Shown: positions 6,000 through 61,258 of the stretch, piece by piece
How the letters are laid out: every line of letters starts with the position of its first letter
Numbering within the stretch: position 1 is the first letter of the stretch
Assembly (NCBI GenBank): GCA_029253285.1
Contig: JAQWZU010000067.1
Coordinates: forward strand, 62,001 to 126,000
Length of the DNA stretch: 64,000 bases
Direction of reading: 5' to 3'
Source: Akkermansiaceae bacterium
Lineage (GTDB): Bacteria; Verrucomicrobiota; Verrucomicrobiia; Verrucomicrobiales; Akkermansiaceae
Position numbers and translations under genes: made by a program
The notes under the pieces: generated by a model
What the model saw: the letters and a program-made list of their open reading frames with translations, nothing else
What the model was told of the DNA's origin: nothing
Databases searched by the model: none

Positions 6000-6485
6000 T
6001 CAGGGAACCCGGAATCGGTGAATTGATTTGTTAGGATCATTCGGGTCCTGCACCAATGACCCACTGGGAATTCCGCGGACATCCACCGGCTCCATGGTCC
6101 ATGGGTTAAAGACGTATCCCGACTTACCCGGAATCTTGCGCGCAGTTTGATAGGTTTTCTTACGATTCGTGTTGGTCTCCCCCAAAGGAGTCTGATCAGA
6201 AGTCGTCGCCGGATTAATTACCGGGGGAGTGTCCTGAGCAACAAGATCCCGTGCTGCCTCTTCGATCGAGCGCTCACGGGCTTCGATACGACGTTTTTCC
6301 TCGGCCTTCCGCTCGGCAAGCTCTATCTCAAGCTGGGCAATTGTCTTTTCATAAGGCTGATTTGGCCCCAATACAAGGTTCCCGGCTGGCATGTTTGGGT
6401 TGTGCCCCGGTGGGTAGGCAGGAGTACAACTGACAAGCAGTGCGCCACTCAAGAGCAGGCCGGCTAGATTTTTGAGAGAAATCAT
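6000..6485 (-). CDS. Hypothetical lipoprotein
   Basis: Predicted 161 aa from the ATG at 6485; a TTG at 6494 is less likely. A signal sequence with lipobox LLVSC (Cys about residue 20) marks it as a lipoprotein. After the cysteine come a Pro/Asn-rich stretch and then a charged, probably helical segment rich in Glu, Arg and Lys (about residues 50-85). The end contains PGKSGYVFNPWTMEPVDVRG, which looks like a short conserved tail seen in verrucomicrobial envelope lipoproteins (impression only). Function unknown. It diverges from the LuxE-like gene, with under 100 bases between the two starts, and is followed by its own terminator. Confidence 0.75.
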   Translation of the reverse strand: MISLKNLAGLLLSGALLVSCTPAYPPGHNPNMPAGNLVLGPNQPYEKTIAQLEIELAERKAEEKRRIEARERSIEEAARDLVAQDTPPVINPATTSDQTPLGETNTNRKKTYQTARKIPGKSGYVFNPWTMEPVDVRGIPSGSLVQDPNDPNKSIHRFRVP

Positions 6486-6583
6486 GACTTTCAATATCGG
6501 TAGGAGTTCGGAATATGGGTGGGCGCCAGCGAGCTGACGGAGTCTTCATCACGGGCGAAAGCCAATTTGTCAAGCCACCACCC

Positions 6584-7624
6584 ATGTCTGAGAGTTCTAA
6601 CAATTCCCGCGACCAAGAGGGTCTCCTGATTCAACAGGTGCGGAAATTTGTCATCTCCCCAGAAGGGGGAAACTTTGGGACCCTAGCACAAGACCTCTAC
6701 AAACACCAATTTTCGGTCAATTTACCCTTTCAGCGCTACTGTCAGACCATCGGACGAAGCCCGGATTCCATCGAAAGCTGGCGCGAAATCCCCGCCGTCC
6801 CCACCAGCGCCTTCAAACTTCCCGAATTCCCCCTCGTCGGCCTGCGTCCCACCATCAAGCGGTTTCTAACATCAGGAACCACCACCGAGATTCGGGGCGC
6901 CCACCATTTCCCCGACACCTCCCTCTACGAGTATTCCCTGATAGAAACCTGGAAAAAACAGAATTTCCCAACACTCACCCACCTCTACCTCACACCCTCA
7001 CCCGTCGAGCTCCCCGAATCGTCCCTCAGCCACATGTTCAGAACTCTGGGATCCAATCTTCCCGATCCGTTTCTTCTCAAAAACGACCGCTTCCACCTTC
7101 AGCCCTTATTTAATCAAATCAGAACCGAGGCCCCCCTCTTCCTGATGGGAACCGCCCTGGCCCTCCTTCATCTTATGAAAACTCTCGGGCCGCTCCCACT
7201 CCCCCCCGGATCGCAAATTCTCGAGACCGGGGGCTACAAGGGAACCCGCCGCCAACTCTCGAAAGCCGACTTCTATTCCCAGCTCGCAGAATTCTTCGCT
7301 GTCCCGGACCATGCCATTCATAACGAATACGGCATGACCGAGCTCTCAACCCAGGCCTACGCTACCGGATTAGGCGGAGCCCACCGCTTCCCCGCCTGGT
7401 GCCGTCACCAAATTCTCGACCCCGAAAGCGGATACGAACTTCCTCCCGGAGAAATCGGCTACCTCCAAATTCACGACCTCGCCAACGTCCATAGTGTCGC
7501 GGCCATCCGAACCCAGGATTTTGCCATCGGACACGAAGACGGCTCCTTCACCCTCATCGGACGCGACCCCGGAGCCCTTCCCCGCGGTTGCTCCCGCAGC
7601 ATCGACCACTCCCTTTCCTCATGA
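6584..7624 (+). CDS. LuxE-like acyl-protein synthetase (ANL adenylating fold)
   Basis: Predicted 346 aa from the ATG at 6584 (an earlier in-frame start at 6515 would add a low-quality leader). It has the AMP-binding loop FLTSGTTTEIRG (about residue 90), the ANL motif HNEYGMTELSTQAY (about residue 245), and a C-terminal GRDPGALPRGC ending with Cys336, ten residues from the end. LuxE proteins activate a fatty acid as acyl-AMP and pass it to a cysteine near their own C-terminus, so this cysteine is a good candidate for the acyl carrier. The stop overlaps the next gene's ATG, giving a LuxE-LuxC unit. The product is probably an activated acyl or aryl group for reduction; the substrate is unknown. 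Confidence 0.82.
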   Translation: MSESSNNSRDQEGLLIQQVRKFVISPEGGNFGTLAQDLYKHQFSVNLPFQRYCQTIGRSPDSIESWREIPAVPTSAFKLPEFPLVGLRPTIKRFLTSGTTTEIRGAHHFPDTSLYEYSLIETWKKQNFPTLTHLYLTPSPVELPESSLSHMFRTLGSNLPDPFLLKNDRFHLQPLFNQIRTEAPLFLMGTALALLHLMKTLGPLPLPPGSQILETGGYKGTRRQLSKADFYSQLAEFFAVPDHAIHNEYGMTELSTQAYATGLGGAHRFPAWCRHQILDPESGYELPPGEIGYLQIHDLANVHSVAAIRTQDFAIGHEDGSFTLIGRDPGALPRGCSRSIDHSLSS

Positions 7625-8598
7625 ACCACGCCGAACGACTCGACCTCATCGCCCGCTCGGCTTCCTTCTTCGAACCCTACACTGGGCCCTTCGACTGCGA
7701 CCTTCTCCAAGGCACCTGGGATCGCGAACTTTCCCCACCCACCGTTCGCCTGCCCAAATCCATCGTTCACATCATCAGCGGCAACACCCCACACGCCGCA
7801 TACCAATCACTCCTCAACGGACTCATCCTTGGAGCAAAAAATCGCCTCAAGCTTCCCTCGAATGCTCTCCCCGATTTTGAAATCCCTCCCGGCTTCGAAC
7901 AATTCGTGGAACTCTCCCGTGATCTCCCTGACCACTGGATCCCCGAAGCTGATGCACTCGTCGTCTTCGGTTCCGACGACACCTTGCGTCACTTCCAACA
8001 ACTCTGCCCCCTCGAAACACCCTTCATCGGTCACGGCCACCGCGTCGGTATCGCCATCATCAAAGACCCCACTCCTGAAGCTGCTCAACTCGCCGCCCGA
8101 GACATCGGCCAATTCGATCAACAAGGCTGCCTCTCCCTGCAAACAATCTATCTCAAAGACCCCCGCGCCTTTGCTCCTCTCCTGGCAGACGCCATGGCTG
8201 AATTTGAAAAAAGCCACCCGCGCGCTCCTCTGGGCCCCTCCGAAGCCGGAGCCATCACCAACTTCCGCGAAGAAATCCGCTACCTCACCGCCCAAACTCC
8301 CGACGACGTCGCCCTCTGGGAAAGCCCCGACTCCACCGCTTGGACCATCGTCTCTCAAAACTCCTCCGGACTTTCCCTCTCCCCCGGCAACCGCACCGTC
8401 TTCCTGCGCCCCATGCCCGAAGACTTCTCAAATCTCACCCACCTTTCCGGCATCGGACTCCATCCCTTCACCGAACGAGCCGATCTGGCCTCACCTCGAA
8501 TCTTCCCCCTCGGCCAGGCCCAATCTCCACCCGCCCTCTGGGCCCACGACGGAATCCTTCCCCTCGCCTCTTTGGTGAAACACCAAACGCTTCAGTAA
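7621..8598 (+). CDS. LuxC-like acyl-CoA/acyl-protein reductase
   Basis: Predicted 325 aa from the ATG at 7621, which overlaps the LuxE-like stop as ATGA; a start at 7588 inside the previous gene is unlikely. IHIISGN-type and NTPHAAYQSLLNGLILGAKN blocks (residues 45-75) match the LuxC/aldehyde-dehydrogenase-like nucleotide region. FDQQGCLSLQ around Cys170 is the active-site cysteine block of LuxC (PF05893). Classical LuxC is near 480 aa, so this is a short form that lacks most of the N-terminal part. The enzyme would reduce an acyl-enzyme from its LuxE partner to the aldehyde with NAD(P)H. No luxA, luxB or luxD gene is nearby. It runs 7 bases into the convergent DUF2141 gene. Confidence 0.82.
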   Translation: MNHAERLDLIARSASFFEPYTGPFDCDLLQGTWDRELSPPTVRLPKSIVHIISGNTPHAAYQSLLNGLILGAKNRLKLPSNALPDFEIPPGFEQFVELSRDLPDHWIPEADALVVFGSDDTLRHFQQLCPLETPFIGHGHRVGIAIIKDPTPEAAQLAARDIGQFDQQGCLSLQTIYLKDPRAFAPLLADAMAEFEKSHPRAPLGPSEAGAITNFREEIRYLTAQTPDDVALWESPDSTAWTIVSQNSSGLSLSPGNRTVFLRPMPEDFSNLTHLSGIGLHPFTERADLASPRIFPLGQAQSPPALWAHDGILPLASLVKHQTLQ

Positions 8599-49567: not shown

Positions 49568-50908
49568 TCATCCCGTCAATTCCGTCATTTCTCCACTACT
49601 ATCGGCAAATTTGTCTACCGGAGCATCCACCGCGTTAAGCACTGAGACAAAGAGATTCGCAAGCGGCACCTTATTCTCACCCTCGTAAGAGTGCAGGTTT
49701 CCATGCTTGAAACCGAGCGCCTTTCCGCCGGCCACCTGAATCGGGTAATTCTTGGTGCTGTGGGAAGCGTGCGGGTGGGCCGAGCCCCAAACCACGACCG
49801 TTTGGTCGAGCATATTGCTTTCGCCTTCCGGAGTATTTCGCAAGCGCTCCAGAAAATAGGCATGCTGCTTGGCCCGCCAATTATCCCATTTTCCTGATTC
49901 AGTCGGGCGCTTGTGGGCGATGTCGTGGGTCGCTCCTTTGTAACCGAGCACGTAGTTGGCGTAATTCCACATCTCACTCCCACTGGATTGCTCGCTTTCG
50001 AGCATGAGGGTGGCGAAGCGGGTAGAATCGGTCTGGAAAGCCAGATAAAGCAAGTCATACATGCATCGGGTGTACTCCTCGGGATCCTTGTGGGAGACTT
50101 CAAGGTTTAGCCCTTTGGTATCGACATCTGGAAGTGACTCATGAGTCCACTGGCTGGTGCGTTCGACACGCTTTTCCAACGCGCGAATGGAGTCGAGATA
50201 CTCTTCCAGTTTCACCTGATCTTCTTTGCCAAGCCGACCCTGAAGCTTCTTGGAGTCGCCCATCATCAAATCGAGCACACTTGCCTCGCGCTTGAGGTCG
50301 GCGCGAACTTGTTCGATTCCTTTTCCAGCGTAGGGATTGAAGAGGCGGTTAAAAATTTCCTGCGGGCGATGCATCGACGGGATTGGACGACCGGGACCGT
50401 AATGAGAAAGCGTCTTGGCGCTGCCGTATGAACCAGTGCCACCTTCAGTGCCAAGAACAAGAGAAGCATAACGTGTCTTGTGTCCGCTCATCTTTGCCGC
50501 GAGTTGATCCACCGAGATGTTATTTGTCTTCTCCGTTCCCGACATGTCGGCACCGGTTGCAAAAACATCACCGCTGCTGTGACCACCCATTCCGACTCCG
50601 CCCGCGTGTTCGAGACCACGAAGATAACTCACCGAATTCTTCAGCGACTTAAAAGGTGATGCGGATTGATTAAACGAGAGCGGTCCAGCCTCCTTGCAGG
50701 GCCACCAGTTCCAATCGTGGTGCGAACCATCTTTGTTTTTGGGCTCGTATACTCCGTAAGCAATGTAGCTCACCACCATCCGCTTGGGCAATGCTTTGCC
50801 AGGGGTCGTCTTTCCCCACGACATTCCCTGAAGAAATGGCAGGGCCAAGGCGGCACCGCCACCCCGGATAAATTCACGTCGATCAAGATGCCAGGATTTT
50901 TGCTTCAT
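49568..50908 (-). CDS. DUF1552 secreted protein (copy 2)
   Basis: Predicted 446 aa. HLDRREFIRGGGAALALPFL is a twin-arginine signal. GMGGHSSGDVFATGADM and NNISVDQLAAKMSGH match DUF1552. Its start overlaps the stop of the upstream cytochrome-like gene by four bases (ATGA). It is the last gene of a four-gene chain. No catalytic residues can be named; the family function is unknown. Confidence 0.88.
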   Translation of the reverse strand: MKQKSWHLDRREFIRGGGAALALPFLQGMSWGKTTPGKALPKRMVVSYIAYGVYEPKNKDGSHHDWNWWPCKEAGPLSFNQSASPFKSLKNSVSYLRGLEHAGGVGMGGHSSGDVFATGADMSGTEKTNNISVDQLAAKMSGHKTRYASLVLGTEGGTGSYGSAKTLSHYGPGRPIPSMHRPQEIFNRLFNPYAGKGIEQVRADLKREASVLDLMMGDSKKLQGRLGKEDQVKLEEYLDSIRALEKRVERTSQWTHESLPDVDTKGLNLEVSHKDPEEYTRCMYDLLYLAFQTDSTRFATLMLESEQSSGSEMWNYANYVLGYKGATHDIAHKRPTESGKWDNWRAKQHAYFLERLRNTPEGESNMLDQTVVVWGSAHPHASHSTKNYPIQVAGGKALGFKHGNLHSYEGENKVPLANLFVSVLNAVDAPVDKFADSSGEMTELTG

Positions 50909-53424
50909 GGATTATTGGTAAATGTTGGGCTTTGGCAGACGGATACAATGATGTCCTGAAGTTTGTAGCCGTTTCCTTTCGCCAGTTTGAGTAATCTCTC
51001 GACTTCAAATCGATCACGATAAGTGAGCTTCCTTCCAATACTGTAGGTCAGCAACCTCCGAATGACGTTTTCAACAATCTCATCCTGACGTTCCTTAAGA
51101 AGGTATCGTTTGAGCTTCGGCATCCCGTCGACCTCAGGTCCATGAGGCACTCGCGATGAGGCATCAACTTCCTCCGTGTAGATTGACTTCAAATACTCTT
51201 GATAGCCCGCGAAGGTCTTGTCACTTTTGAGATGAAAGCCACGCACACGGACTTTCTCTTTCGGCACGAGGGGCTGGTATTTTCCGATCGCGCTGTAGCG
51301 TTCAAATGGAATCCCCCATGGATCGAGTCGCACGTGGCAATCGGCGCAGCTTTCCTGCTGCCGGTGAAGCGCGAGGAGATCTTTAATCAACACCGCTTCA
51401 TCCGCGGAATCTCCGGCCGAATCGGACAACGCCGGGACTTCCGCTGGCGGAGGTTTCACCTCGTGACCCAAAATAGCCTCACGCAACCAGACCGCCCGAT
51501 AGATCGGATGAGGAGCAGAGCCCGTGGAGTTTCCGATTAACATTGCCCCCTGGGTCAACAATCCGCCAAGGCGATGCTCTGGTTTGACTGGAATGGCACG
51601 GAGCGTTAATCCGCTCACTCCATCAACACCATAATGCGCCGCAAGCGGTTCATTGAGATAGGCAAAGTCAGAGTCGATGACATTCATTACGCTCGCGTTG
51701 GTTTTAATCAGCTCACCAACGAAGCCCACTGTCTCCTCAAGCATGTAATCACGAATGGTCGGGCGAAAGAGCTGTTCCTGACCACGTCGTTCGCCAAGGT
51801 GCACCGTATAAAGAAAGCGAGGAAAAAGATCGCGGTTGATGTTTACCGTTTTCATCTTGGCGATGCTCAACCACTGGGTGGAGAAATTCTCCACAAAACC
51901 TTCCGCGCGTTTATCCAAGAGGAGTCGTCGCGTTTGCGCTTCGATGACCGCTGAATCAGTCAGCTTCCCCGAAGCAGCGAGATCAAACAACTCTTTATCA
52001 GGCATACTCCCCCAGAGGAAATAGGAGAGCCGTGAAGCGAGTTCATACGGCTTGGTTGCGGCAGCCTGATCAATCACCGTGTGAAAAAGAAACTGCGGCG
52101 AGACGAGCACCATCGCCAAAGTTTCCCGCATGGCCTCTTCGAGAGTCTCAAATTCGGCATCGTAAATCTTGAAGACACGGTAGTAGTGGTCGACCTCATC
52201 CCTGGCCACCGGTCGCCGAAAGGCTCTCGTCATGAAACGCTTGATTACCTCGTAGGCATACTCGGCAGGTTTACTCTCGCGCAGGGATGATTCGAAAAGA
52301 ATACGCGTATGATGATCCGGCGGCCAAATCTCGCTCACGGGCGCTTCGAACTCGATCGATTCGAGGACCACCCGCGGCGCCTCCAAACTCCACGACGCAT
52401 CAAAACCACTCTTGCGATGATCGTTAAGTTCGCCGTTGTCGAAAATATTCTGAGCCGTAATGGTGATACTCGGAGGACGAACTTTATTTCGGTGCGTGCT
52501 GGATGGTTGGACCGGCACATTCTCGATCCGCCCGCGAAACTCATACTCTCCGGGATTGTCAGGAGTATTTGTCAAATGAACAACTCCCACTTCGTGGCAG
52601 ATCCCCGATCCCGAATCATGTCGGAGGTTGGTTCCCATCACCACACGAAGCGGCACCTCCTGAAAGCCGGGAGGAAGATTCCCTGACGCCTTGACGCGAA
52701 GTTTAAACTCACCGGTTTTGGGCCAACTTTTCAAGCCCATCGTTTTGTTACCCAGACCAGGTCCCTGATAGACCCCGATTTCAGCTTGGGTCAATCCTCC
52801 CTTACCGGGCTTGCCATGGTCCCATTTCGCGCTGCTCTGATGAAGCTCCGGCTTACCGGGATCGACAATGGCACTCGCCATCGCCTTGCGGGCGGCCTCC
52901 TTGTAACGAATCAATTGATCCGGCCCGATCATCATCATCTGCGCGGTATTGTTGAAATGATACGGCTTGTCCGGATCGGCGGGAAGATCCTTGGAGAGCG
53001 CGAGTTCAAAGCCCAACAGGTCTCGCATGGTATTCTGATACTCGAAGTTCGTGAGCCGCCGAGTCGTGGTCGCAACCGCAACCTTGCTCTCCTTTTCAAC
53101 GTAATGACGAAGACCCGAATCGATCCATTTCGCGACCGCTTCGCGAGATTTCGCATCCGGCTGAGGTTCGTCTTCGGGAGGCATCTCTCCGCCTTCCAAC
53201 ATCTCCAGAACCAACTCCCAGTGTTCAAGATCCCCTTCCACCATCTCACCCCGCAGAGTATGGACAGTAATATCGCCCTTGCTCTTTTGAGGGCCGTGGC
53301 AGGAAACACAATGCTCTTCAAAAAACGGCTTCACCGTCTCCTCAAACACCACCCCGTCCGCCCAGACCAACTGCGGGAAAACCAATCCCGCGGAAATCAC
53401 CAAACCCCGAATCAACCTTTCCAT
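50905..53424 (-). CDS. DUF1592-type multidomain secreted cytochrome-like protein (copy 2)
   Basis: Predicted 839 aa with a signal peptide (VISAGLVFPQLVWA). EEHCVSCHGPQKSKGD near residue 37 is a CxxCH haem motif. DUF1587 (RRLTNFEYQNTMRDLLGFEL, about 125), DUF1595, DUF1592, DUF1588 (LGGLLTQGAMLIGNSTG, PPPAEVPALSDSA, then ESCADCHVRLDPWG) and DUF1585 follow. It starts at the base where the previous gene stops (overlap of one base with the DUF1552 copy 3) and overlaps the next DUF1552 gene by four, so it is firmly coupled on both sides. Confidence 0.88.
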   Translation of the reverse strand: MERLIRGLVISAGLVFPQLVWADGVVFEETVKPFFEEHCVSCHGPQKSKGDITVHTLRGEMVEGDLEHWELVLEMLEGGEMPPEDEPQPDAKSREAVAKWIDSGLRHYVEKESKVAVATTTRRLTNFEYQNTMRDLLGFELALSKDLPADPDKPYHFNNTAQMMMIGPDQLIRYKEAARKAMASAIVDPGKPELHQSSAKWDHGKPGKGGLTQAEIGVYQGPGLGNKTMGLKSWPKTGEFKLRVKASGNLPPGFQEVPLRVVMGTNLRHDSGSGICHEVGVVHLTNTPDNPGEYEFRGRIENVPVQPSSTHRNKVRPPSITITAQNIFDNGELNDHRKSGFDASWSLEAPRVVLESIEFEAPVSEIWPPDHHTRILFESSLRESKPAEYAYEVIKRFMTRAFRRPVARDEVDHYYRVFKIYDAEFETLEEAMRETLAMVLVSPQFLFHTVIDQAAATKPYELASRLSYFLWGSMPDKELFDLAASGKLTDSAVIEAQTRRLLLDKRAEGFVENFSTQWLSIAKMKTVNINRDLFPRFLYTVHLGERRGQEQLFRPTIRDYMLEETVGFVGELIKTNASVMNVIDSDFAYLNEPLAAHYGVDGVSGLTLRAIPVKPEHRLGGLLTQGAMLIGNSTGSAPHPIYRAVWLREAILGHEVKPPPAEVPALSDSAGDSADEAVLIKDLLALHRQQESCADCHVRLDPWGIPFERYSAIGKYQPLVPKEKVRVRGFHLKSDKTFAGYQEYLKSIYTEEVDASSRVPHGPEVDGMPKLKRYLLKERQDEIVENVIRRLLTYSIGRKLTYRDRFEVERLLKLAKGNGYKLQDIIVSVCQSPTFTNNP

Positions 53425-54818
53425 TACCCGAAGAACTCCTTAATTGGACCTTTCTGGTCCAGGTCAGTCAGCCCGGTATCAATCGCTCCATAATGCTCAA
53501 CGGGATTTCCGTAGGCATTCAAAATCGTGGTATACCAATTCCCCAAAGTCTTGTGCCCTTCCTTACCGTAGTGAGGAAGGCGGAGATATTTCCCGGCGAT
53601 ATCAAGCTTCACCTTGTTACCCGCCAGCACCACGAAGGGCCACTCGGTTCCCTTGCTGTGATGAGTCTCCCCATTGTCCGGAAAGTAGAGAAGCATGGTG
53701 TTATCAAACATCGTGCCACCATCTTCGGGAGTCTCTTTCAGACGAGTCACAACACGATCAACCAAAGCCATGTGATGGCGGCGAACCTTCTCGCGAACTT
53801 CCACCGCTTCAAATTTTCCTACGGACTTATTGTGGCCCACGTCGTGGAGATTCACGTTCTCGTTTTCGATATCTTTGATCCCGGTATATCTCGTGCCCAA
53901 CTCATCAATCGTCAAAGTCACCACATTGGTCATCCCGGAAATAAGCGACGAAAGAAGAATCTCTCCATGACCAATCTGACGGTCAATCGTGGAAAGATCG
54001 TCCGCAAAATATTTTTGATCCAACTTGGGAACATGACGCCGAATCACATCAGCCATCGCATCCATCTTCCGGTTCCGCTCGCGGATGTCATCAATCGAAT
54101 CCGCGTAGTTCTTCACCTTCGCCTTCTCCAGTCCACGCAACTCTTCGGAGAGCCCTCCTTCATTCTTCGCCGCAAATTCCAAGAGACGACGCTCAAGCTG
54201 GTATTGGACCTGCGAATCTTTATCGCTCAGCACTGACTTAAACAATTCCTGCATCGCGACTTTCGGCGAGCCAAAGGCATAGTTCGGCTGCTGGGGACCA
54301 CGGGCCGAAAAGCCTTTCTCGATCCCGTTGATATTTCCTCGTGAATTGCCACCACCACTGGGAAAGCAAGCCAGCTCAATATGCTCCAGCGGAGAGGGAT
54401 TCAACTTAGCCAACTCAAAATCCACCGTCGCCCACTTGATCGAACTCAGCCGCTCATTGGCTTTGTAAACTCCCAGCGATGACTGCCAGGTGTGGTGGCC
54501 CGTCGTGCACATCTTGCCGGAGAGTCCCTGCAGGATTGTCATGTTCTCCTTGTGCTCGTTGAGCGCCCCCATCCAATCAGGCAGGTCGTGATTTTTCAGC
54601 TCCACCTGAAAAGCATCCTTTCTCTTCTCCATCGCCAACTCCTCTTCGCTCAGCGTAGGCGGCACCAAGGCATCGGGAAACAATCCGTTTCCTTTATGAA
54701 TGAAGATAAATCGCTTCGGAGAATTTCCTTGTGTCGACTTGGCAAACAAGCCGGAGCCCAGGGCCATCGACCCGGCACCCAGCATCGATTGTTTCAAGAA
54801 TTTTCTTCGGCTATTCAT
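53424..54818 (-). CDS. DUF1552 secreted protein (copy 3)
   Basis: Predicted 464 aa. SRRKFLKQSMLGAGSMALG is a twin-arginine signal. GKMCTTGHHTWQSSLGV and VVTLTIDELGTRYTGIKD fit the DUF1552 family, though the sequence is less similar to copies 1 and 2 than these are to each other. Start overlaps the upstream gene's stop by eight bases (ATGAATAG). The next gene begins at the last base of its stop codon. TAT export fits a folded, possibly cofactor-bound periplasmic protein. Confidence 0.85.
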   Translation of the reverse strand: MNSRRKFLKQSMLGAGSMALGSGLFAKSTQGNSPKRFIFIHKGNGLFPDALVPPTLSEEELAMEKRKDAFQVELKNHDLPDWMGALNEHKENMTILQGLSGKMCTTGHHTWQSSLGVYKANERLSSIKWATVDFELAKLNPSPLEHIELACFPSGGGNSRGNINGIEKGFSARGPQQPNYAFGSPKVAMQELFKSVLSDKDSQVQYQLERRLLEFAAKNEGGLSEELRGLEKAKVKNYADSIDDIRERNRKMDAMADVIRRHVPKLDQKYFADDLSTIDRQIGHGEILLSSLISGMTNVVTLTIDELGTRYTGIKDIENENVNLHDVGHNKSVGKFEAVEVREKVRRHHMALVDRVVTRLKETPEDGGTMFDNTMLLYFPDNGETHHSKGTEWPFVVLAGNKVKLDIAGKYLRLPHYGKEGHKTLGNWYTTILNAYGNPVEHYGAIDTGLTDLDQKGPIKEFFG

Positions 54819-57294
54819 TGCGTTGGATTGGTTTTTTTCGGTAGATGAAGGAATCCGAGGTCAACAAAGACAGGACGACCATTTTAAAACTGCCACCGTT
54901 TTTCACGTAAGCGGTTTCAGCATCGATTAAAGTTTGTGAATCGGAAAGCATTTCATTTCGCCCCATAAAGTAGCGGAAGGCATGCCTAATGATCGACTGC
55001 TGGACTCTACGGGACTTGGCGAGCCGATCAATCAACTCAAAGGCATCTTTGACCTCTCCGTCCAATGCCATATCACCTGTCCCTTCGAGGAATCCGACCG
55101 AATTCAAGGGCTTGGTCTTGTAAGTATGCTCACCAAACTTCCCCTGCCCCTTTTTAAGGACATTTTCAGGATGCTCCAGGGATTCGCTCAAACGATAGCG
55201 GCCAAAGTCATCGAAGACCTCAAAAGTCAACCCGAGCGGATTCATTTGCACGTGACACTTCCAGCACTCTTCCTTCGAAGTCACGCCCTCCAACCTTTCA
55301 CGCAAGGTGCGATGGTGATCCTCCGGAATTTGCGCATCCACCGTAATGGGGACATCCGGCACATAGCCCGCGAGCAGTTTTTCACGAACCCACCTTCCGC
55401 GCCGCACCGGATCAGTCTCAGTATTTTGGGAATGCGCCACCAACCAAGCCGGATGAGTCAGGATTCCTTTCCGATTGGGGATCTGAAACGGCTGTGTCGT
55501 TGGAAAGTCCCAGTAATCCTGATCGGTGTATTTCCCATTTCCTCCAATCGGCCCACTGCCAGCTGATTTCGGCAAGCTATAAACCTCGGCATAACTGAAC
55601 TTCTGTCCGCCGTGATAAAACCACGGAGATGTCGCCGGAGTAATTCCACGACCAAAGGTCACTTTGAAATACTGCATGAACCTCTGAAAGTCTCTCCCGG
55701 TTCGCCTATCGTCGACCTTGGTAATCTTAATCGCCTTCAGTACCTCACGATACTTTTCAAAATTCTCCGCAACAAATTTCTTGGGGTCGTCCTCCCATCC
55801 GGTGTCCTTCAGCCCTTCCCAAACCGCTTTCCAACTCGCGATGATTTTCGCCCCTTCTTCATTATTGTGACGATGAAGCACAAAAAACTCATCCGTCGTA
55901 AGGAGCTTCTCAAAGACATCTTGATCCTCCTTCAGAACCCAATCAACCACCTTGTCGGCCTCATTGGTCACCCAACCCGCCGTTCCGGAATAGCCTCTCG
56001 CAGAATTCATAAACGCACCGCCACTTCGGGCGGTATCCTTAAAAACCTTGGTGCTATTTGGATAACCGAAGAACTCGCGGAAGAAGCGATTGATCTTCGG
56101 GTGGGACACTTTGTGTGAGCGCAGATGCAGGCCATTCACCGTCGGGTCTGCCTCCCCGAAAAATGCTTTCTCATCCTTAAGCAAACGCAGCACTTCCCGT
56201 CGATAATCCTCCTTTGTATTCAACCGACCTTCCTCCGCCGCCCTGACCAGAGCTTCGTCAGGGTTGCGGTCGCTGAGTGCATAGGCAATAGCGTAGCTCG
56301 CTTCCCGGGGAGACAACTTCCGGCGCCCTTCTTGATCCAATTCGCCATCCCCAAACTCAAGGCGATACATAAACTCCGACTTCAGCAGCACACTCACCAA
56401 CATCTGGCGCAAGCCTTCGGTATTCCCACCCAGCGCAATACTCTCCTTCAAAAGCGCGAGGTGATTCTTCAACTCCTCCTCGCTGGCCCGGCGCTGGAGC
56501 ACACATTGATACTGCGCGTGGATCGCCGAAGCCATTTCTGTCTCAGTCGGAGCTGATTTCTGAGTAACAATCACCGAGAATGCTTCCGGAGTATTCCCCG
56601 GGCGCCACTTGTCTTTGGGGTTCTCGAATTCGTTTGCCTTCAGCTCCCCATTTTTAACCCGCGCCTCCCTGAGCTGCTTTCGCGAAATCCAATCGGCGTT
56701 CGTCAACATCGTCAACAAATGTCCACCATCCAGAGTCGTAGTGTCGTAATAACGAACACCGGCATGGTCCGGAAGAATGATCGGAACGGTCACCCCATAA
56801 AAAGTCCGCTGACGCCCTTTCGCTTCAAGCCCGAAAACGGCATTGACTCGCTCAATAAAAATCTGGGGACTCACCAACCATCTCCGGGAAGGTGTGAAGG
56901 GCTTCCCTTTAATCTCACCACTGAAGAGTTTCTCATGATCCACATAGTTCCCGTAATTTGGATAGCGCAACTTATCTTCCAAAGTCGACGCATTATGCTT
57001 CTTCAACTCACCCGCTACCCAAACGAGCATTTCCTTGCGCTCCGAGACACCCGGTTGCTTCTTTTTCTTCTTTGGAGGCATCTGCTCGAAATAAAGCTGC
57101 TCCTGAATCTTGTTGAAGACATCGAGCCGCACCTCCAGCGGAAGCGTGTCCAATTGATCCAGCCGGAGACCGCCCTTCTGCTCCCATTCGTCATGACAGG
57201 AATGACAGTAATTCTCGAGAAACTTCTCCGGTTCGATGGCCATCGCGGGCAGGAACGACAAAGCAGTAAAAATAATGCCCCATCGTTTTCTCAT
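54811..57294 (-). CDS. DUF1592/DUF1588-type secreted cytochrome-like protein (copy 3, divergent)
   Basis: Predicted 827 aa from the ATG at 57294, which starts a signal peptide (RWGIIFTALSFLPAMA); a longer frame runs to 57372. ENYCHSCHDEWEQKGG near residue 25 is a CxxCH motif. The middle (ALSDRNPDEALVRAAEEGRL) and the end (HPAWLVAHSQNTETDPVRRG, then EECWKCHVQMNPLG with a second CxxCH) fit DUF1592/1588, and DUF1585 follows. The typical DUF1587 block is not obvious, so this is a divergent form. It heads the four-gene chain down to 49568. Confidence 0.82.
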   Translation of the reverse strand: MRKRWGIIFTALSFLPAMAIEPEKFLENYCHSCHDEWEQKGGLRLDQLDTLPLEVRLDVFNKIQEQLYFEQMPPKKKKKQPGVSERKEMLVWVAGELKKHNASTLEDKLRYPNYGNYVDHEKLFSGEIKGKPFTPSRRWLVSPQIFIERVNAVFGLEAKGRQRTFYGVTVPIILPDHAGVRYYDTTTLDGGHLLTMLTNADWISRKQLREARVKNGELKANEFENPKDKWRPGNTPEAFSVIVTQKSAPTETEMASAIHAQYQCVLQRRASEEELKNHLALLKESIALGGNTEGLRQMLVSVLLKSEFMYRLEFGDGELDQEGRRKLSPREASYAIAYALSDRNPDEALVRAAEEGRLNTKEDYRREVLRLLKDEKAFFGEADPTVNGLHLRSHKVSHPKINRFFREFFGYPNSTKVFKDTARSGGAFMNSARGYSGTAGWVTNEADKVVDWVLKEDQDVFEKLLTTDEFFVLHRHNNEEGAKIIASWKAVWEGLKDTGWEDDPKKFVAENFEKYREVLKAIKITKVDDRRTGRDFQRFMQYFKVTFGRGITPATSPWFYHGGQKFSYAEVYSLPKSAGSGPIGGNGKYTDQDYWDFPTTQPFQIPNRKGILTHPAWLVAHSQNTETDPVRRGRWVREKLLAGYVPDVPITVDAQIPEDHHRTLRERLEGVTSKEECWKCHVQMNPLGLTFEVFDDFGRYRLSESLEHPENVLKKGQGKFGEHTYKTKPLNSVGFLEGTGDMALDGEVKDAFELIDRLAKSRRVQQSIIRHAFRYFMGRNEMLSDSQTLIDAETAYVKNGGSFKMVVLSLLTSDSFIYRKKPIQRNE

Positions 57295-57456
57295 GCCAGT
57301 GAGACGGATTGGAAAAGATCGAAAAGCCATAGCAAACGACAAGAACGGCACCCCGTCCCCATCCCCCGCCAATCAACGAGAGCAAACAGAATTCTGCAAC
57401 TAAAATCAGCCCACTAACCCTGATTAAAAACGATCAGGATTATCCACTTCGCCCAA

Positions 57457-58893
57457 TTACCCGAAGACATCCATCACCGCTTTTCCGTGACCGTCCTTGG
57501 TCGCAAAGAAAGGACGCTTTTCGACATCGAAAGCTGTCTTGGGGCTGATACCCATCGCCGTGAAAATCGTGGCGTGGAGATCTTCCACAGGAACCGGGTT
57601 CTCCACTGCGAGCAAGGGCCGTTCATCCGCAGTCTTCCCGTAGAGTCCGCCCTTTTTCACTCCCCCGCCAAACATCGCCACACTCGTTCCACCAGTGAAG
57701 TGCCGGTGAAGGCCATATTGCTTCATCTCCGTGAGCTTGTCAGTCCGAGCACGGGATTGATCCTTGGCATTCGACCCGGGCCTTCCTTCGATCATCATGT
57801 CCCGGCTGAATTCACTCGCGATCACTACGAGCGTCCGGTCCAGCAATCCCCGCTCCTCCAAATCCAGAATCAACTGCGCAATCGGCGCGTCGATTTCCTT
57901 CTTTAAGCGATCCACCGTAGAGTGCCCGTTTTCGTGAGTATCAAAGTGGACAAAAGGAATATATTCAGTCGTCACTTCGACAAAGCGCGCGCCCTCCTCA
58001 ACCAGACGACGCGCCAAAAGACATCCCTGTCCAAAACGACCGGTGTCATATTTCTCAACCGATTCCTTGGGTTCGAGTGTCAGGTCAAAAGCGCCTTTCT
58101 CTTTCGATTGTAACAAGCGATGCGCCGACTCCATCGAACGCAACATCGACTCCTGCTGAAAGTCGCTCATGTATTCCCGGTTGGGATTCTGATCGATGAG
58201 CTTTTTAAAATACTTGTAGCGATTCGCAAAGCGCCCCGGCTCCATCCCTTTCGGCGGCTGTACCGAGAGCACGGCATCCTTAGGATAAGGAAGATTCATT
58301 GGCCCAAATTCCGATCCAAAAAAACCACCCGTGGTGAACGCTTTGAGTTCTTCTTTTTCGCCAACTCCTTCGAGTCGTTGCCCGATGTTAATGAAAGGCG
58401 GGATGACAGGATTCTTTGGACCCAACACCTTGCCCATCCAGGCCCCAATATGCGGAGCAGCCACCGTGAGCGGCGGAACATATCCGGTATGCCAATGATA
58501 CTGATGACGGGAGTGCAAAATGTGCCCGAGGTCGGGCTGCACTGCAGACCGAATCAAAGTGCCCCGGTCCATCACCTGGGCGATCTTCTCCATCCCCTTG
58601 GTGATCTTGATGTTGTCCACCGCAGTATCGATAGCCGGGAAAGTGCTCAGGATCTTATCAACCTCCAGACCCTTCTCATAGGGAAAGTAGCGTTTCGGAT
58701 CAAAGGTATCCGGCGCGGCCATTCCACCGGCAAGCCAAATCAAAATACAGGAATCGGCCTTCGCTTCCGGATGCTTCACCTCGGCAGAATCCGCCAGGGC
58801 TCTCGCTCCGCTACCACCCAATGCGGCCAGCGAAGCAGCGCTCAACTTTTTGACGAAATCTCGTCGCGTTCTTTGTTCTTCCGGAGTCATCAT
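57457..58893 (-). CDS. DUF1501 secreted protein
   Basis: Predicted 478 aa from the ATG at 58893; the open frame runs further upstream, but the region beyond overlaps the neighbouring gene. QRTRRDFVKKLSAASLAALG is a twin-arginine signal. IWLAGGMAAPDTFDPK, HSRHQYHWHTGYVP and LVVIASEFSRDMMIEG match DUF1501 (PF07394), a family related to alkaline phosphatase/sulfatase folds. It starts one base after the stop of its DUF1549/DUF1553 partner. Function unknown. Confidence 0.9.
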   Translation of the reverse strand: MMTPEEQRTRRDFVKKLSAASLAALGGSGARALADSAEVKHPEAKADSCILIWLAGGMAAPDTFDPKRYFPYEKGLEVDKILSTFPAIDTAVDNIKITKGMEKIAQVMDRGTLIRSAVQPDLGHILHSRHQYHWHTGYVPPLTVAAPHIGAWMGKVLGPKNPVIPPFINIGQRLEGVGEKEELKAFTTGGFFGSEFGPMNLPYPKDAVLSVQPPKGMEPGRFANRYKYFKKLIDQNPNREYMSDFQQESMLRSMESAHRLLQSKEKGAFDLTLEPKESVEKYDTGRFGQGCLLARRLVEEGARFVEVTTEYIPFVHFDTHENGHSTVDRLKKEIDAPIAQLILDLEERGLLDRTLVVIASEFSRDMMIEGRPGSNAKDQSRARTDKLTEMKQYGLHRHFTGGTSVAMFGGGVKKGGLYGKTADERPLLAVENPVPVEDLHATIFTAMGISPKTAFDVEKRPFFATKDGHGKAVMDVFG

Positions 58894-58894
58894 C

Positions 58895-61258
58895 TTAACG
58901 AACGATTTGGTATTCAGGTTGCATGAAGACGAGCCAGAGCAGGTCTTCGATCGATTGCGCATCACGACCATCGCCAATGACACTCGATAAAACCTTACGC
59001 TCTCCCGCCAAAGGAGCACGCGAAAAGGCATGACGAAAAACCCAATCGACCATCTCGCCACTCTCCTCACCCTTTCTCGCGAATGCCTGCGCGCCCCTCT
59101 GCATGTGATTCGCCATCAAGTCTCCATTCGCCAAGTCAATCGCCTGCAAAGTCGTCAAATCACGAGGCCGCGAGGTCACCACCTGATCCCGATGCGGCCG
59201 TCCGAGCGAGCGCATGAGAAAATCATTCTTCACCAAGGCCGCTCTCACCGGCGGGATATTACCGCCTCCACTCACCGCAAGAATCTGTTTCGGATCTAGA
59301 ATCTTCCCCCAGGGCCCCGTCGAGTGATCGTGCAATTCCGCAGCCGACTTCCATTGTCCTCCCGGCGGCCGGGCCTGCCACGAGCCATCAGAAATCACCG
59401 CGACCTGCTTTCCTCGCCGAGTCATGGCAATCTCGCCAATAAAACCCGCCGAGCCACCAAACATCTCGGCGTCCACTTCGATCAAATTATCACCCTTCCT
59501 CAAAGCCTTGGTCAAATCCGCCACCACCGGCTTCTGCCAGTCCTGCGAAGACACCACCTTTACCCCATTTACCTTCATCACGAAGGCATTGTCGCAAGTC
59601 GCGATCAGCCTCGCTGCTGCGGGAACCTCAGTGAGCTTGAGGGTCTTTCGAAGCTGCGATTTTTTTCCGGTCTTCCCCTGATGCCAAATCCACTTGGCCG
59701 AAATCGGCTGAGGCTTGATACTCGTCTTCGTCGATTTCTTCTCATCCGGAATCGTCCGATCAACCTTTCCCGCCGCTTTACCCGCAGAAACTCCGCTCAC
59801 TTGCCAGATCGTATCGAGCAGTTGCTCGGCCGTCATCCGCTTCGCGATCGGACCGCGATATTGATAATCCTCCCCAGGTTCTTTTTCCAGTATCACACTC
59901 CGCGACTGATAAGCCTTCGAGTTCATGATAAAGCGCACGAGCTTTTTCAAATCGTATCCATCCTCGGCAAATCGCACCGCCAGATAATCGAGCAAGTCCT
60001 CGTTCCACGGCCTGGAATCAAGAGCGTCGACCGGATGAGCAATCCCCCGCCCCATCAATCGCTCCCAGTATCGATTCACCAAAGTCCGCGTGAATCTGCC
60101 ATTCCCCTCATGCGTCATGAGCCCGGCCAATTGCTTCAGCCGCTCGTTCTTCGGAGCCTTTGGATCAACATTTCCCAATTCGGGGAAAATCCACTTCGCG
60201 GTCGCCATTTGCCCCGTCGGTTTGTCGCAACGATGCAGCTCCAATTTCTGATCCGAAAAAATGGCCGCCAAATTATAGGCTTCCTCTAATTTCCATCGAT
60301 CAATGAAGCTGTCATGACAGCTTGCGCACTTCATGTTGATCCCGAGAAAGACCTGCGAGATATTCTGCGAAAACTGAATCTCACGCGTCTGGCTCGAATT
60401 CACATCGCCCCGCCATTTGATCCCATTGATGAATCCCTCCGAGGCTGCCGTCGGCGAAATCAATTCTCTCACAAACTGATCATACGCTTTGTTCTCCCGC
60501 AGCGATTGATAAAGCCACCCCGTGATCTGCTTCCGCCCCCCGGTGATAAAGCCCGTCCCGGTATAATCATTTCGCAACAAGTCATTCCACATCGTCAGCC
60601 AGTGATCGGCATAGGCAATGTCCCGTGCCAGCAAGCGATCAATCGCCTTGGCCTTCTTATCCAAATCCGAGTCCTTCAGGAATGACTCCAACTCCGCCGG
60701 GGTCGGCAGTAATCCCACAATATCCAGAGTAGCCCGACGCAGGAAAACCGCATCTGGAGCCAAGCCCCTAATCGTCACTTTCTGCTTCGCCATCCCGGCA
60801 TCCAAAATCCGGTCGATCGGATGATCCCGCCCCTGATGCGCCAAAGGCAATTTTACCTTCCGCGGTTTTAAGGGCGGCTCCCACGACGACTCACCCAGAG
60901 TAATCCCGTCCTCCCAGGGAAGGCCTTCATTGATCCACCTCTCCAAAATCTCAATTTCCTGCACCTCCAGCCTCGGCCCTTTGGGAGGCATCCACTCATC
61001 ATCATCCTTTGAGTGAATCAACTTGATCATCAAGCTCTCCTTCGCCTTCCCCGAAATCGCGACCTCTCCAAATTCCGATCCCGCCAAAAGCTCCGCGCGC
61101 GTGTTGATCGACAGCCCGCCCTTCTTCTTGGTGCCCGTATGACATTCCGTGCAATGCTTCCGAAGCACCGGCATCACTTCGTGCACAAAGTCCACTTCTC
61201 CCTTCGCCAGCGACGACAACCCAAGCAGGAAAACCCCTCTGACAAAAAAACCTCTCAC
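58895..61258 (-). CDS. PSCyt1/DUF1549/DUF1553 secreted cytochrome-like protein with inserted beta-sandwich
   Basis: Predicted 787 aa, signal peptide in the first 20 residues. HCTECHTGTKKKGG near residue 36 is the first CxxCH (PSCyt1); DUF1549 spans about 150-360 with a second motif MKCASCHDSFIDRWKLE near 312; DUF1553 starts near 375 with GRFTRTLVNRYWERLMGRG. Between about 515 and 615 an extra module, SAKWIWHQGKTGKKSQLRK to KGDNLIEVDAEM, resembles the N-terminal beta-sandwich of alpha-L-rhamnosidases and splits DUF1553. It is one base from its DUF1501 partner. The family is thought to be exported and haem-binding; role unknown. Confidence 0.88.
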   Translation of the reverse strand: MRGFFVRGVFLLGLSSLAKGEVDFVHEVMPVLRKHCTECHTGTKKKGGLSINTRAELLAGSEFGEVAISGKAKESLMIKLIHSKDDDEWMPPKGPRLEVQEIEILERWINEGLPWEDGITLGESSWEPPLKPRKVKLPLAHQGRDHPIDRILDAGMAKQKVTIRGLAPDAVFLRRATLDIVGLLPTPAELESFLKDSDLDKKAKAIDRLLARDIAYADHWLTMWNDLLRNDYTGTGFITGGRKQITGWLYQSLRENKAYDQFVRELISPTAASEGFINGIKWRGDVNSSQTREIQFSQNISQVFLGINMKCASCHDSFIDRWKLEEAYNLAAIFSDQKLELHRCDKPTGQMATAKWIFPELGNVDPKAPKNERLKQLAGLMTHEGNGRFTRTLVNRYWERLMGRGIAHPVDALDSRPWNEDLLDYLAVRFAEDGYDLKKLVRFIMNSKAYQSRSVILEKEPGEDYQYRGPIAKRMTAEQLLDTIWQVSGVSAGKAAGKVDRTIPDEKKSTKTSIKPQPISAKWIWHQGKTGKKSQLRKTLKLTEVPAAARLIATCDNAFVMKVNGVKVVSSQDWQKPVVADLTKALRKGDNLIEVDAEMFGGSAGFIGEIAMTRRGKQVAVISDGSWQARPPGGQWKSAAELHDHSTGPWGKILDPKQILAVSGGGNIPPVRAALVKNDFLMRSLGRPHRDQVVTSRPRDLTTLQAIDLANGDLMANHMQRGAQAFARKGEESGEMVDWVFRHAFSRAPLAGERKVLSSVIGDGRDAQSIEDLLWLVFMQPEYQIVR

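Follow-up and report, generated by a model that had tools for sequence, protein, structure and literature searches.

Overlapping LuxE-like and LuxC-like genes in an Akkermansiaceae genome without luciferase-family genes: a probable compact carboxylic acid reductase

What would a LuxE-like acyl-protein ligase and a LuxC-like reductase be doing in a bacterium that is not expected to emit light? Two adjoining genes in a 64,000-nt stretch of DNA from a marine Akkermansiaceae bacterium (the window) raise this question. The window comes from an assembly of 4.3 Mb in 224 contigs, 96.7% complete, whose close named relatives are Verrucomicrobiales/Akkermansiaceae metagenome genomes. A preliminary description of the window had stated that the pair occurs with no luxA, luxB or luxD. 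For the luciferase genes luxA and luxB this held across the whole assembly, in which PF00296 found no match although 10 of the 14 control genomes gave one; light production is therefore very unlikely, considering that an assembly of this completeness shows no luciferase-family gene. The luxD part of the statement is less secure, as PF02273 gave no match in the assembly but likewise none in the control genomes.

The luxE-like gene lies on the plus strand at 6584..7624 and encodes a 346-aa putative acyl-protein ligase (ANL/PaaK-LuxE fold) with the N-terminus MSESSNN. The reading frame is open further upstream (6515-7624, 369 aa), and 6584 is the likely start because the ORF of a relative, at locus L023, begins there. 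On the same strand, the luxC-like gene at 7621..8598 encodes a short putative acyl reductase of 325 aa with an ALDH fold; here too a longer ORF exists (7588-8598), and the ATG at 7621 is conserved in the alignment of relatives. The stop of the first gene and the start of the second overlap by 4 bases (ATGA), and of the 24 genus members in which the two genes are adjacent, 22 have an ATG at the corresponding offset. The intergenic region 6486..6583, between the luxE-like start and a divergent gene, is the presumed operon promoter. That divergent gene (6000..6494, minus strand, probable start 6485), named lipoprotein-like from its sequence, is a conserved neighbour, with members of its cluster in 31 of 43 loci (some of them further stretches of the same genome), and we do not count it as part of the pair's function. 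Also divergent and upstream are tyrA, aroA, a gene that its sequence likewise marks as cytidylate-kinase-like, and an acyltransferase gene, while luxC-like is followed on its 3' side by an oppositely oriented DUF2141 gene and then by an amino acid permease. Both genes flanking the pair are thus on the opposite strand, and no operonic SDR, importer or dedicated downstream enzyme was found beside it in the window. Of the 20 genus genomes checked, 16 have the ORF 3' of luxC-like on the opposite strand, which suggests that the unit usually consists of two genes. Names of neighbours come from Pfam or similarity checks, or from reading of the sequence where so stated, and the simple ORF calling used includes some antisense ORFs.

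Taken alone, the first protein of the pair is not readily recognised as LuxE. PF04443 did not match it at 0.01, so that the curated cut-off was not reached; the NCBIfam LuxE model found it at 3.4e-9, but with 36 bits against a cut-off of 550; and comparison of the single sequence with PDB LuxE gave 1.4e-6. Its relatives make the connection more clearly. PF04443 was matched at E<=0.01 by 28 of the 29 members of the LuxE-like alignment, the window protein being the sole exception (the member from genome G207, for example, scored 50.6 bits, cut-off 24.9), and a profile of the 29 relatives found the LuxE chain (7xc6_E) of the Photobacterium phosphoreum LuxC-LuxE fatty acid reductase complex at E=1.2e-37, with the C-terminal cysteine aligned on GCS. 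Because these matches come from the relatives and the family profile, and not from the window protein, we call it LuxE-like and regard it, on sequence comparison, as a divergent homologue of LuxE. Its candidate acyl-transfer cysteine, in the motif RGCS, is encoded at 7589..7591 (plus strand; Cys359 of the 369-aa ORF, Cys336 of the 346-aa form) and is kept in all 50 aligned rows. The motif TSGTTTE at 6869..6889 (plus strand), which we take to be the ATP-binding loop, is nearly as constant, with Ser120 and Thr122 in 50/50 rows and Gly121 in 48/50. An AlphaFold model (pLDDT 85.3) has a PaaK-type adenylating fold, matching 2y27_B with Z 23.3 and rmsd 3.2 over 291 aligned residues. The LuxE chain 7xc6_E was absent among the structural matches listed for the model, which we do not count as evidence of difference. 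PaaK shares the fold; the PaaK chains listed have 427-433 aa against 346, and the domain matches of the 29 members were to PF04443 and PF00501, with one stray PepQ_N match.

The second protein is identified more directly. It matches PF05893 at E=1.1e-27 (97 bits, over the cut-off of 21), as do all 27 members of the LuxC-like alignment at E<=0.01, and the family profile found LuxC of 7xc6 at E=2.3e-42, with DQxGCLS aligned on DQQACFS. On the other hand, it scores only 38 bits against the 750 of NF052251, the equivalog model for LuxC of lux operons, and has 325 aa against about 477. The candidate catalytic cysteine, in DQQGCLS, is encoded at 8128..8130 (plus strand; Cys181, numbered from 7588), aligns with YDQQACFS of 7xc6 LuxC, and is kept in 50/50 rows of an alignment that takes in six plasmid records and distant fused forms. 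In lux systems it is the LuxE and LuxC cysteines that carry the acyl group. Asn66 of the SGNTP motif (7783..7785, plus strand, same numbering), presumably the oxyanion-hole Asn expected of an ALDH fold, is present in 47/50 rows, with Thr in three; Lys88 of KLPS (7849..7851, plus strand), which we assume to occupy the position of the ALDH cofactor-binding Lys, is present in 42/50, the eight remaining rows, all of them distant, having Q (5) or R (3). The AlphaFold model (pLDDT 86.7) aligns with 7xc6_A over 322 residues (Z 29.1, rmsd 3.5), ahead of the next ALDH at Z 23.6, and the modelled core is complete, with the nucleotide-binding core included. The preliminary description of a coupled acyl-protein synthetase and acyl reductase, each with its key cysteine, is therefore supported by homology, both cysteines, the ATP loop and the folds; loss of a cysteine in close homologues, which would have spoken against it, was looked for and not seen in any of the 50 rows.

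We consider that the pair is probably a compact two-component ATP- and NAD(P)H-dependent carboxylic acid reductase that gives an aldehyde. The observations behind this reading are the homology to both Lux proteins, the two cysteines, the ATP loop, the ALDH-type core of the model, the gene overlap, and the housekeeping-like inheritance and purifying selection given below; from them we infer both enzymatic activity and a physical complex. In such a reductase, the LuxE-like protein would use ATP to turn an acid into an acyl-adenylate. It would then take the acyl group onto its C-terminal cysteine, from which the group would pass to the active-site cysteine of the LuxC-like protein, and the latter would reduce the thioester with NAD(P)H to the aldehyde. 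The aldehyde would then probably be converted to an alcohol or a lipid by enzymes encoded elsewhere in the genome. As for the acid, our guesses are a medium- or long-chain fatty acid, to which we give slightly less than even weight, then a small aromatic or heteroaromatic acid, at about one third, and then another acid, at about one fifth; the fatty acid thus has a small lead over the aromatic one. Weak hints towards lipid come from the neighbourhoods: the gene ahead of luxE-like in G306 encodes a protein in which lipid A acyltransferase and heptosyltransferase domains are combined, an AMP-binding enzyme is encoded two genes past luxC-like in G361, and the fifth gene upstream of luxE-like in the window is an acyltransferase gene. 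Wax ester synthase (PF03007) was matched in 0 of 59 genomes, the control genomes being equally without a match. The earlier suggestion of a fatty or aryl aldehyde made for a lipid or pigment rather than for light thus stands as far as light is concerned, is faintly favoured by the neighbourhoods for lipid, and finds no support for pigment.

How does the pair compare with known systems? Both subunits of the P. phosphoreum complex are homologous to it by profile, with both cysteines aligned and the LuxC fold matched, but the P. phosphoreum LuxC is longer, the window proteins score far under the equivalogs for both subunits, and the window genome is without a luciferase-family match. Among the named relatives found, those nearest to the LuxE-like protein (29-38% identity) are in plasmid operons of Pantoea, Azospirillum, Priestia and Lactiplantibacillus (five regions), in which luxE and luxC stand in the same order and the GC(S) cysteine is kept. 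These operons differ from the window in that their LuxC is full-length (482-493 aa), that they include an SDR gene and that four of the five also have an importer; the presence of E, C and SDR together is as expected for a path from acid to aldehyde to alcohol. These plasmid loci (L082-L086) look like a candidate acid uptake and reduction system in their own right; for the ABC importer of Priestia, the binding protein was tested and is of the NMT1/SsuA type.

The plasmid operons also bring up the alternative that survives best, namely that the substrate is not a fatty acid but a small aromatic or heteroaromatic carboxylic acid, which is taken up from outside and which the pair serves to salvage or detoxify. 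Besides the company of E, C and SDR in these nearest named relatives, the two Azospirillum operons and that of Priestia have an annotated ABC importer, the Lactiplantibacillus pair comes after an NCS2 permease, and the LuxE-like model is nearest to PaaK, 2-hydroxyisobutyrate, salicylate and phenazine-type enzymes. However, LuxE itself is also an ANL-type enzyme. Moreover, the opposite-strand genes that flank the pair in the window are neither importer nor SDR, the ORF after luxC-like changes strand in most genus genomes as well (the 16 of 20 above, a count of strand only), and retention by nearly the whole genus (see below) fits an endogenous substrate better. We hold salvage or detoxification to be rather unlikely.

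The LuxC-like protein was said to be much shorter than classical LuxC, and it is: 325 aa, against 477 in 7xc6_A and the still greater length of the plasmid relatives. The shortening affects the N-terminus, the interior and the C-terminus, the structure alignment spanning residues 58-458 of 7xc6_A with 322 residues. At the N-terminus, 57 LuxC residues are missing by structure alignment and 105 by profile alignment (7xc6_A start at 58 and 106, respectively); LuxC of the plasmid relatives has a longer N-terminal region and tail. At the same time, most verrucomicrobial LuxC relatives have 321-373 aa as called ORFs, and the short size is therefore a trait of the clade. The N-terminal and internal losses could mean that cofactor binding or assembly of the LuxC-like protein differs. 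A step further, the LuxE-like protein might acylate while the short LuxC-like protein serves acyl transfer, or mere acyl binding, and reduces nothing; the shortened N-terminus would suit this, as would the variation of the expected cofactor Lys and oxyanion Asn across the wider family. Yet Asn66, Lys88 and Cys181 are all kept in the window protein and in every genus row of the alignment, and the nucleotide-binding core is present in the model, which makes a non-reducing LuxC-like protein improbable.

The pair is normal for its lineage and patchy in the phylum. Among sampled genomes of the genus, the LuxE-like protein was found in 27/27 and the LuxC-like protein in 26/27; among the window's own genome and its relatives (n=58), in 34 and 33, respectively, with all 33 carrying both; and in a sample of the phylum (n=387), in 18 and 20, with all 18 carrying both. 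The two additional LuxC-like matches in the phylum are weak; for the one in G283 there is a LuxE-like partner, which is weak as well. The oddity implied earlier, of a pair without luciferase and with a short reductase, is thus real in its features but ordinary for this clade, and has published precedents (see below). The genus member with only the first gene, G008, is 88% complete; its luxE-like gene (L045:6479-7516) keeps the cysteine and is directly followed by a different gene, and no luxC-like match was found anywhere in that assembly. The same genome is also without a match to a divergent IF-1-like gene that is described below. The two genes are separated yet both kept in G041, G030 and G361, and also in G027, where luxE-like is cut by the contig end. 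In G030, a genome of 1.5 Mb with its two lux-like genes at separate places, luxC-like adjoins a ubiE-type methyltransferase gene (L034:7662-9465).

Between close relatives, dN/dS values of 0.20-0.32 point to purifying selection. In trees of both proteins, the genus and nine relatives form one 31-row clade, with supports of 99/95 for E and 100/97 for C; the plasmid group has 100/100 in the E tree but only 96/75 in the C tree. The two trees conflict on the deep placements of G133, G061 and the fused type (see below), and long branches and uneven composition were flagged by the tree program. Trees and distance matrices were built without G008, G015, G020, G022, G024, G027, G029 and G361, which were represented by fragments or by one of the two genes only. 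Over 41 genomes (G218, G283, G384 and six plasmid records were also left aside here), E and C distances correlate with r=0.956. In a 22-genome control the correlation was 0.96 for E-tyrA, 0.94 for E-C and 0.80 for E-aroA, and that of E-C fell to 0.60 after removing tyrA and aroA. As E-C was no higher than E-tyrA, we dropped the mirror-tree evidence for specific coevolution of the two proteins; distances that track tyrA suit vertical inheritance. Phages searched by tblastn with the LuxE-like protein gave no match, and viral contigs held no relative of the LuxE-like alignment.

Outside the genus, the pair often has a third neighbour. Of 12 clade genomes, 8 (at L029, L030, L031, L033, L087, L088, L090 and L091) have an IF-1-like gene after luxC-like and in the same orientation, a count in which nine genomes were placed by the trees (6/9) and three, G027, G029 and G361, by score (2/3); selB comes next in three of the eight. 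No IF-1-like match was seen after luxC-like in G306. These IF-1-like genes are divergent matches to PF01176, with about 30-37 bits where scanned and 89 bits at L088, the Pfam check having been made on four of the neighbouring genes or on the counterpart in the genus. Within the genus, the IF-1-like gene stands directly before selB, away from E-C, in 8/8 loci examined (in the window's own genome it is at G000:C133:4103-4285, L113). The divergent IF-1 was found in 25/27 genus genomes, 20 of which have a canonical IF-1 as well, and five of the 25 matches are below the Pfam cut-off. Could the pair then work with the IF-1-like and SelB genes, in translation or selenoprotein synthesis? The adjacency in both groups of genomes would speak for such a link, but E-C of the genus stands outside the cluster, and SelA, found in 29/34 genomes with E (27 of the 34 from one genus), is missing from the other five and present in 8/24 without E. 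Counted by genus, SelA occurs in 5/8 with E and 6/18 without, an association that we judged not convincing; a tRNA-Sec search was positive in all 14 controls, with only 5 over the cut-off, so that only over-cut-off matches are informative. Nor is any chemistry known that would join an acid reductase to SelB. Considering the separate place of E-C in the genus and that SelA does not closely follow E/C, we read the adjacency of E, C, IF-1-like gene and selB as an old gene order, and a working link as very improbable. The fuller version, in which a minimal LuxE/LuxC-type reductase belongs to the core biology of Verrucomicrobiota, E-C-IF1-like-SelB being the ancestral order and its aldehyde product or acyl-enzyme serving translation or selenoprotein synthesis with a dedicated IF-1 paralogue, unrelated to light or O-antigen, is speculative to the same high degree.

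One of the non-luminous hosts of LuxE homologues, Riemerella, belongs to the Bacteroidota. As described in PMC4772473, AS87_03730 of Riemerella anatipestifer is a LuxE homologue of a non-luminous bacterium whose deletion mutant had a phenotype, and RfbN of the Vibrio cholerae O-antigen tetronate pathway carries a LuxE domain. Aeromonas flagellar glycosylation islands (PMC7874193) hold luxE and luxC together without light, with fatty aldehyde supply proposed from homology; they differ from the window in that the two genes belong to a glycan island, in the company of genes for an ACP, an ACP reductase and an AMP-dependent synthetase. Our pair is accordingly a divergent, compact variant of LuxE/LuxC genes already published from non-luminous bacteria. 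Open-access literature (titles and abstract openings) gave no description of this pair in Verrucomicrobia. In V. cholerae RfbN, the LuxE domain is reportedly fused with LuxC, the single polypeptide defining the type. The window pair shares with that type the use of a LuxE-type domain without luciferase, but consists of two overlapping genes where RfbN-type proteins are fused with a fuller LuxC; among the genomes examined, fused ORFs (829-840 aa) occur only in G218 (L102:3966-9033) and G384 (L103:3740-6229). The fused gene of G218 adjoins an AMP-binding ligase and an iron alcohol dehydrogenase, a set which, we presume, resembles the RfbL-M-N O-antigen genes of V. cholerae. That the window pair is a functionless leftover from a former lux or O-antigen cluster, as its patchy spread in the phylum might suggest, is hardly credible in the face of purifying selection, invariant active-site cysteines and retention of E and C across the genus, and of the fused type forming a distant branch in the LuxE tree, though in the tree of LuxC it falls with the plasmid group.

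If the pair does work as a two-protein acid reductase, it would offer a compact alternative to the large single carboxylic acid reductases of biocatalysis, would suggest that the chemistry at work in light organs is part of a larger family, most of it uncharacterised, and would be an overlooked aldehyde-producing step in marine Verrucomicrobia. Elsewhere in the window (49568-61258), series of large proteins that look secreted and contain CxxCH motifs stand beside proteins with Tat-type starts (judged from ORF starts only), a pattern known from Planctomycetes and Verrucomicrobia.
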